Source of the DNA: a virus | Virus record (IMG/VR): IMGVR_UViG_3300030382_003503 | Coordinates: 1-21,086 of that record | Length of the DNA: 21,086 nt | Strand: one strand, 5' to 3' | In this document: piece after piece, positions 7,566-7,789 of the stretch | How positions within the stretch are numbered: position 1 is the first letter of the stretch | Layout: the number at the start of each line of letters is the position of its first letter | Notes under the pieces: model-generated | What the model saw: only the letters and a program-made list of their open reading frames with translations | Databases searched by the model: none | What the model was told of the DNA's origin: nothing | Translations under genes and position numbers: made by a program

Positions 7566-7789
7566 GATATTCGGAATTGTGCCTATTGCCCGTTAGGTGT
7601 GAGGCGCAACCGAAACGAGATTGCAGGACGGTCCCCGCTCTATAGCGGGCGGTGTGGCTTCCTGCTTCAAGATTGCTGCGGCGGCGCACGAACGGCGCTC
7701 CGGCTAGCAGCTAGTTGGCGGGGTAACGGCCCACCAAGGCGACCACGGCCCGCAGCATACCACTAAGGCCAGCGCCTAACCGGCAAGGC
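7566..7789 (+). ncRNA. Structured non-coding RNA, multi-branched, with a 16S helix-11-like arm
   Basis: About 225 bases fold through several exact pairings. The closing stem joins GCC 7581-7583, TTGCC 7586-7590 and GTTAGGTG 7592-7599 to CGCCTAAC 7773-7780, GGCAA 7782-7786 and GGC 7787-7789, with a C-C mismatch and a two-base bulge. Inside are GCAGGA 7623-7628 with TCCTGC 7660-7665, enclosing CCCGCT 7634-7639 with AGCGGG 7644-7649 (loop of four), and the eight-bp stem TGCTGCGG 7674-7681 with CCGCAGCA 7750-7757. That stem encloses GGCGC 7683-7687 with GCGCT 7695-7699 and a segment like 16S rRNA helix 11 (7709-7743). No credible protein is encoded, and no known family is recognised. The start is estimated from the promoter and the end from the closing stem. 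Confidence 0.72.

Follow-up and report, generated by a model that had tools for sequence, protein, structure and literature searches.

Helix 11 (h11) of bacterial 16S rRNA recurs in unrelated phages, and at four unrelated loci it lies on a swappable RNA arm that is replaced in relatives, sometimes by tRNA-like sequence. One of these loci is in the stretch of DNA analysed here (IMG/VR virus record IMGVR_UViG_3300030382_003503, 21,086 bases in full, hereafter the window). The recurrence of the h11 copy in unrelated phages suggests a bait for a host protein. Our main reading, with a probability of roughly 0.45 and drawn from sequence comparison, is that an RNA arm displaying the h11 fold captures an h11-binding host protein, most likely uS17, as a bait in trans.

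Helix 11 in an intergenic gap of the window

The h11 look-alike lies at 7703-7749 (+) of the window, with a core at 7709-7743 (+) whose sequence is AGCTAGTTGGCGGGGTAACGGCCCACCAAGGCGAC. With cmscan, 7703-7749 (+) matched positions 237-283 of the bacterial small-subunit model (SSU_rRNA_bacteria, RF00177) with E 2e-5; the score of 30.1 bits, for a segment of only 47 nt, falls short of the 50-bit gathering threshold. By this score, and by flanking 16S sequence, since model positions 237-283 alone match in the window, the segment falls outside RF00177; by its h11 loop bases and pairing it falls inside. The core is identical to E. coli rrsB 246-280 at 31 of 35 positions and to a plasmid-borne Methylomagnum 16S gene at 34 of 35. 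The near-identity to bacterial 16S h11 noted in a preliminary description of this DNA (about 34 of 35) is borne out. Control 35-mers elsewhere in the gap reached at most 21/35 against E. coli 16S, and 300 shuffles of the window 35-mer reached at most 23/35, which excludes chance as the source of the match, as that description had also judged. Its view of C7719 as the sole departure from 16S needs correction: Methylomagnum 16S has the same C, which places the C-A mismatch within normal 16S variation, and the one difference from that gene lies in the apical loop. The U-A pair expected at this position is absent in 6 of the 23 rows of our alignment (the window and five other phages). Real 16S or contamination at this site was rejected, considering that only 47 nt are present and that the element recurs in complete named phages.

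The gap is bounded by an ORF of 187 aa (6970-7533) and one of 69 aa (7874-8083), with terminase, portal and scaffold genes on its right and replication genes on its left. No family match was found for the 187-aa gene, and the 69-aa ORF, the next after h11, had no match in Pfam or PHROGs. Three IMG/VR contigs (L076, L077 and L078, the first two giving the same match) encode the 187-aa protein at 88% identity, and in all three the gene is directly followed by a promoter-like sequence and a run of about 70 bases. From the promoter-like sequence and the kept scaffold, we infer that the gap holds a noncoding RNA gene, with the following features:

7530-7558 (+): promoter-like sequence read by eye; TTGACA at 7530-7535, a 17-nt spacer and an extended -10, TGC TATGCG, at 7550-7558
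7565-7860 (+): inferred noncoding RNA, ends approximate, placed from the ORF gap and the scaffold kept in L076, L077 and L078
7570-7614 (+): 5′ hairpin TTCGGAATTGTGCC...GGCGCAACCGAA, predicted fold, same sequence in L076 and L078
7623-7665 (+): second predicted hairpin, GCAGGA...TCCTGC, with a GCCCGCTCTATAGCGGGC-like inner stem; in L076, not in L078
7675-7681 (+): 5′ strand of the arm-closing stem, GCTGCGG; in the window, L076 and L078 around different arm contents
7682-7749 (+): swappable arm, a small hairpin then h11; other contents in L076 and L078
7703-7749 (+): 16S helix 11 mimic, core 7709-7743; RF00177 E 2e-5, 64.9 bits with model R1 (below)
7750-7756 (+): 3′ strand of the arm-closing stem, CCGCAGC, from comparison with L076 and L078
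7794-7852 (+): 3′ module closed by CCCGCA/TGCGGG; kept in L076 and present twice in L078

The promoter-like sequence is kept in L076 and L078 as TTGACC...TGCTATGCG with a different spacer; a consensus promoter scan missed the window sequence because its -10 rule requires a final T. The 5′ hairpin lies within the run of about 70 bases, which differs from L076 and L078 at one base, and the stem GCTGCGG/CCGCAGC followed by the 3′ module is present in all these relatives. The content enclosed by that stem varies: it is h11 in the window and a different sequence in L076, and in L078 it includes tRNA T-arm and D-arm fragments. The segment sits inside an arm of the putative RNA, as the preliminary description had proposed, in a scaffold and closing stem that relatives keep. 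Its expectation of a match conserved in related phages held in part: the nearest relatives lack h11 because the arm has been swapped, and unrelated phages have it. The window, set beside L076 and L078, fits a proposed group of exchangeable-arm phage RNAs carrying h11 outside 16S. In L079 (70% identity) the scaffold is absent, with apparently an open reading frame in its place. As a separate observation, the arm replacing h11 at L078:690-1170 carries the T-arm and D-arm in permuted order.

Folding energy alone gave no support for a noncoding RNA in the window (whole-gap z 0.19). The window arm was also not unusual against shuffles (z -0.46), and its h11 fold was predicted to lie 2.2-2.6 kcal/mol above the free-energy minimum. 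ARAGORN found no tRNA genes in the window, and known Rfam families other than SSU were rejected for the phage noncoding RNAs. An S4-Bacteroidia match at 11324-11378 (E 0.31) was below cut-off and was disregarded. A symR-like match at 5477-5545 (-), with two hairpins and beside an HNH endonuclease gene, is probably due to chance (32.9 bits against a cut-off of 61, E 0.0076). A search for the host with the scaffold pattern and a profile of the 187-aa protein gave no match in genome contigs.

Recurrence and conservation of the h11 element

When the gap was compared with phage records by blastn, the same 35-43 bases were found in unrelated phages, mostly in unannotated DNA or at a gene edge; genuine 16S sequences and an ssRNA phage record containing a long 16S segment were also among the matches and were set aside. 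An exact-pattern scan of IMG/VR gave 68 loci and two broader patterns gave 15 more, 83 in total, of which L008 and L097 are probably 16S remnants, leaving about 81 of 83 that are not 16S. Control scans with the 530-loop and the 790-loop, which are more universal 16S segments, gave one locus (inside an ORF) for one of them and none for the other. None of seven 16S marker strings occurred within 1.5 kb of 65 of the 68 first-scan loci, and the other three had one short string. With regard to 16S in phage records, the published ssRNA phage genome BK013632.1 carries about 330 bases of bacterial 16S at its start (L006:136-464, 181.7 bits), perhaps an assembly chimera.

The h11 element spans at least eight unrelated phage lineages. 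Among the loci are those of lambdoid phages, where one site carries either of two h11 arms (the L064 and L091 types), and of a third leader type (L096). Others belong to Muldoonvirus, to several Streptomyces-type groups, and to marine contigs in which the element lies between two putative tail genes, judged by inspection only. Named phages with h11 are Yersinia phage vB_YenM_30.14, Shewanella phage Y11, Jedunavirus and Streptomyces phage Stella. Nine whole phage records or contigs, one per family examined, had exactly one copy apiece, and several elements end just upstream of an ORF. The lambdoid version was found in E. coli prophages in 13 of 5426 genomes. The Muldoonvirus noncoding RNA has at its 3′ end (L004:2039-2110, L115:1201-1272) about 70 bases that match 183 phage records, mostly Klebsiella or Enterobacter T4-like phages without h11; these bases are apparently an undescribed conserved phage RNA.

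For the alignment, L006, L007, L008, L097 and L211 were excluded as real, partial or probable 16S, and 3 of 26 distinct segments, near-copies of kept rows, were left out. The remaining 23 distinct copies aligned gap-free, and 19 of 47 columns were invariant, including the internal-loop bases AGCU-G and GCGA and the apical GU-A-GG. Unpaired loop bases were invariant in all 23 rows while the stems covaried: 94.7% of cells were paired, against 82.4% in shuffles (none of 500 as high), and both sides had changed in 8 of 14 pairs, against 4.3 in shuffles. The signal was lost when the pairing partner was slid. Different 16S donors may account for part of the variation and covariation. Outside h11, the closing helix covaries as well, and at one and the same locus PS2 and 4S differ from Muldoon by a compensated G-C to U-A change, indicating that selection acted after capture.

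A covariance model built from the phage copies with the window left out (R1) found the window at 64.9 bits (E 9.5e-20) and E. coli h11 at 66.4 bits. Among 67 sources without a strong R1 match, no convincing divergent h11 was found in the non-h11 arms (best 15.9 bits). The h11 arms of other phages folded better than shuffles, with z of -5.5 (lambdoid), -7.4 (Yersinia), -4.1 (Shewanella) and -3.7 (Jedunavirus). The mimicry considered in the preliminary description gains from these results, with the same helix present outside 16S in many unrelated phages and with covarying pairs. Its other suggestion, a recently captured rRNA fragment, is not supported, because phages that are only distantly related have the element in common and it departs from the 16S genes compared with it.

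Exchange of the arm at other phage loci

According to the phi80 annotation, the lambdoid arm site lies between nutL and the first left-operon gene, and the phi80 record annotates a nutL boxA at the h11-type leader. Among the 134 loci listed, at least 25 arm clusters occur within one conserved stem. Two of the 25 listed clusters are h11 (44 loci; this share of 44/134 is biased upward, the set having been gathered partly with the h11 pattern), and four carry clear T-arms, one also with a D-arm. Predicted folding was more favourable than in shuffles for every one of the 25 (z -1.9 to -6.6), in part owing to the shared stem. The commonest lambdoid h11 arm (at least 42 loci) precedes at least 24 downstream ORF clusters, and the commonest downstream ORF is paired with at least eight arms; some of the at least 52 downstream ORF clusters at these loci are shortened copies of others. 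Considering that arms and downstream ORFs assort freely, the lambdoid arm behaves as a separate cassette. In L143, the arm before CCAAAGCATTTCTCCC is tRNA-like, with a D-arm, a T-arm and an acceptor-like stem followed by ACCA, and has no anticodon arm.

The query for the terminator-ended Jedunavirus-type RNA matched 92 records; of 10 that were aligned, three had h11, four had other arms and three had no arm. This RNA finishes in a terminator-like hairpin of its own and is oriented against the genes beside it. The lambdoid and Jedunavirus arms share a second element, in which two hairpins with complementary loops (GCUGAU/AUCAGC) frame the guest arm (L082:1476-1582 and lambdoid arms such as L157 and L136); the sequences of the loops make a kissing pair likely.

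Streptomyces phage Stella and contig L025 match 16S 106-311 with h8-h10 deleted (85.4 and 71.1 bits, respectively), so that, read from the sequence, their elements are a miniature h7-h11-h12 junction. Ten Stella relatives share the 3′ part and lack the mini-16S, and one of the relatives, Immanuel3, has other sequence where Stella has it. Exact copies of TTTGAGAACTCAACAGYGTG, which we take to resemble the boxA of actinobacterial rRNA operons, lie at L090:6937-6956 and L212:1019-1038, near noncoding RNAs of Streptomyces-type phages.

ARAGORN found no tRNA genes in the arms except an annotated tRNA-Gly in L113. Searching 46 sequences for other rRNA pieces gave three weak matches, one of them L157 to 16S 754-772 (E 0.014), against a mean of 1.75 in 20 two-base-block-shuffled sets; since this count is near the shuffled expectation, no other rRNA piece is claimed.

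Possible roles and comparison with known RNAs

In the main reading, a phage noncoding RNA with a swappable h11 arm would be made in infected cells, the arm would fold like the ribosomal helix, and it would capture its host recogniser, most likely free uS17 to judge from the 16S pieces kept. As a bait in trans, it would take uS17 for phage use or keep it from 30S assembly. Both the apical and the internal loop are retained, and the Streptomyces phages also keep adjoining helices; this points to selection of the arm for recognition by the h11 recogniser, and the arm's cassette behaviour favours action in trans. The protein uS17 is described as contacting h7, h9 and h11 (PMC3359968), and bS20 is linked to the lower four-way junction (PMC5591316). 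If that junction involves h8-h10, as we take it to do, part of it is deleted in the Stella-type junction; uS17 rather than bS20 would then be the first candidate, because the phages keep h7, h11 and h12 and delete h8-h10. We count in favour of the bait the 83 loci against one and none in the controls, the single copy per record, the covariation with the compensated change in PS2 and 4S, the like scores of the window and E. coli h11 with R1, the miniature h7-h11-h12 junctions, the uS17 contacts and the free assortment of arms. Against it are the folding results for the window arm and the nearest relatives without h11, and swapping with tRNA-like and other arms of no known identity would not be expected if uS17 were the sole target.

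This swapping is what an anti-defence decoy would predict, in which the arms bait defence proteins that target RNA and belong to the host or its resident prophages, and an arms race drives the exchange; h11 would serve for a protein attacking or sensing 16S, and tRNA-like arms for proteins acting on tRNA. The hypervariable early-left arms of the lambdoid phages fit such a decoy, as does the same type of swapping in Jedunavirus, in the window's relatives and beside Stella. However, to our knowledge no defence protein recognises h11. We consider the decoy unlikely on balance, although the exchange with tRNA-like arms keeps it a strong rival.

A role in cis, which we regard as improbable, would have boxA followed by h11 mimic a nascent rRNA operon for rRNA antitermination or folding, or would have h11 act as a processing or stability element of a leader. 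Scored against the boxA consensus, boxA-like sequence lay upstream of h11 at 4 of 13 Gram-negative loci tested (lambdoid and Yersinia leaders) and at 4 of 9 Streptomyces-type loci; the phi80 nutL boxA and the elements ending just before an ORF agree with this idea. But no boxA was found at the window, Jedunavirus, Muldoonvirus, Shewanella or marine loci, so that imitation of an rRNA operon fits the boxA loci only, the window not among them, and boxA is not supported as a universal partner of h11. The free assortment of arms with downstream genes, and the terminator and orientation of the Jedunavirus RNA, also speak against action in cis.

Other arms at the same loci are stable folds too, and h11 might have been captured often as a compact, stable hairpin that serves as neutral or structural filler. 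This seems very improbable when the loop bases are invariant while stems covary, two other conserved 16S segments were not captured and the arms hold no other rRNA piece beyond chance. Recent capture of host rRNA or chimeric assembly, for which BK013632 with its long real 16S and L097 ending in E. coli-like 16S are precedents, is scarcely credible here, contradicted by recurrence in complete named phages and covariation, by the mere 47 nt of 16S and by a scaffold closing stem kept in relatives.

The bait may also be placed in a wider frame, which we offer tentatively and would not expect to hold in full: very different phages would share exchangeable-arm RNAs that display pieces of host RNA (h11 or h7-h11-h12, tRNA elbows and others) as baits, each hitting a different host protein that binds or attacks RNA, with h11 titrating or recruiting uS17.

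Leaders of ribosomal-protein mRNAs imitate rRNA binding sites, for example those of S15, L1 and L10. Like these, the phage h11 is an rRNA site copied outside rRNA, and some phage copies end before an ORF. Unlike these, no ribosomal-protein gene follows (the ORF after h11 in the window is unmatched), the lambdoid arm has no single partner gene, and several copies lie in stand-alone noncoding RNAs. Compared with 16S h11 itself (RF00177), the phage copies have the same sequence, loops and pairing, some Streptomyces phages adding h7 and h12, but stand outside any 16S gene in other scaffolds and closing helices. Lambdoid leader RNAs are known for nut sites, the RNase III hairpin of the lambda N leader and HK022 put; the lambdoid h11 arms likewise lie in the interval from nutL to the first gene of the left operon (as in phi80), whereas their content is a 16S mimic exchanged between phages, and the window RNA lies elsewhere, between the 187-aa gene and the late genes. 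Bacterial Y RNA (YrlA, RF02553) recalls the tRNA-like arms at the swap position of L078, which score 26 bits against a cut-off of 69; the window arm lacks both a tRNA-like part and an RF02553 match. GOLLD and ROOL are also noncoding phage RNAs, several hundred nt long in some hosts and sometimes beside tRNA genes, and neither had an Rfam match in any source searched.

The principle of rRNA mimicry is known from ribosomal-protein leaders, and a phage RNA of such build is unreported in the literature searched: full-text searches of open-access papers showed no description of a phage RNA that mimics a 16S helix. The reuse of one 30S helix by unrelated phages implies a shared host target, none being described in that literature. 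With uS17 as its ligand, the arm would give phages an RNA-based handle on 30S assembly; with a defence protein as the ligand, these RNAs would form an RNA anti-defence class with a swappable specificity arm.
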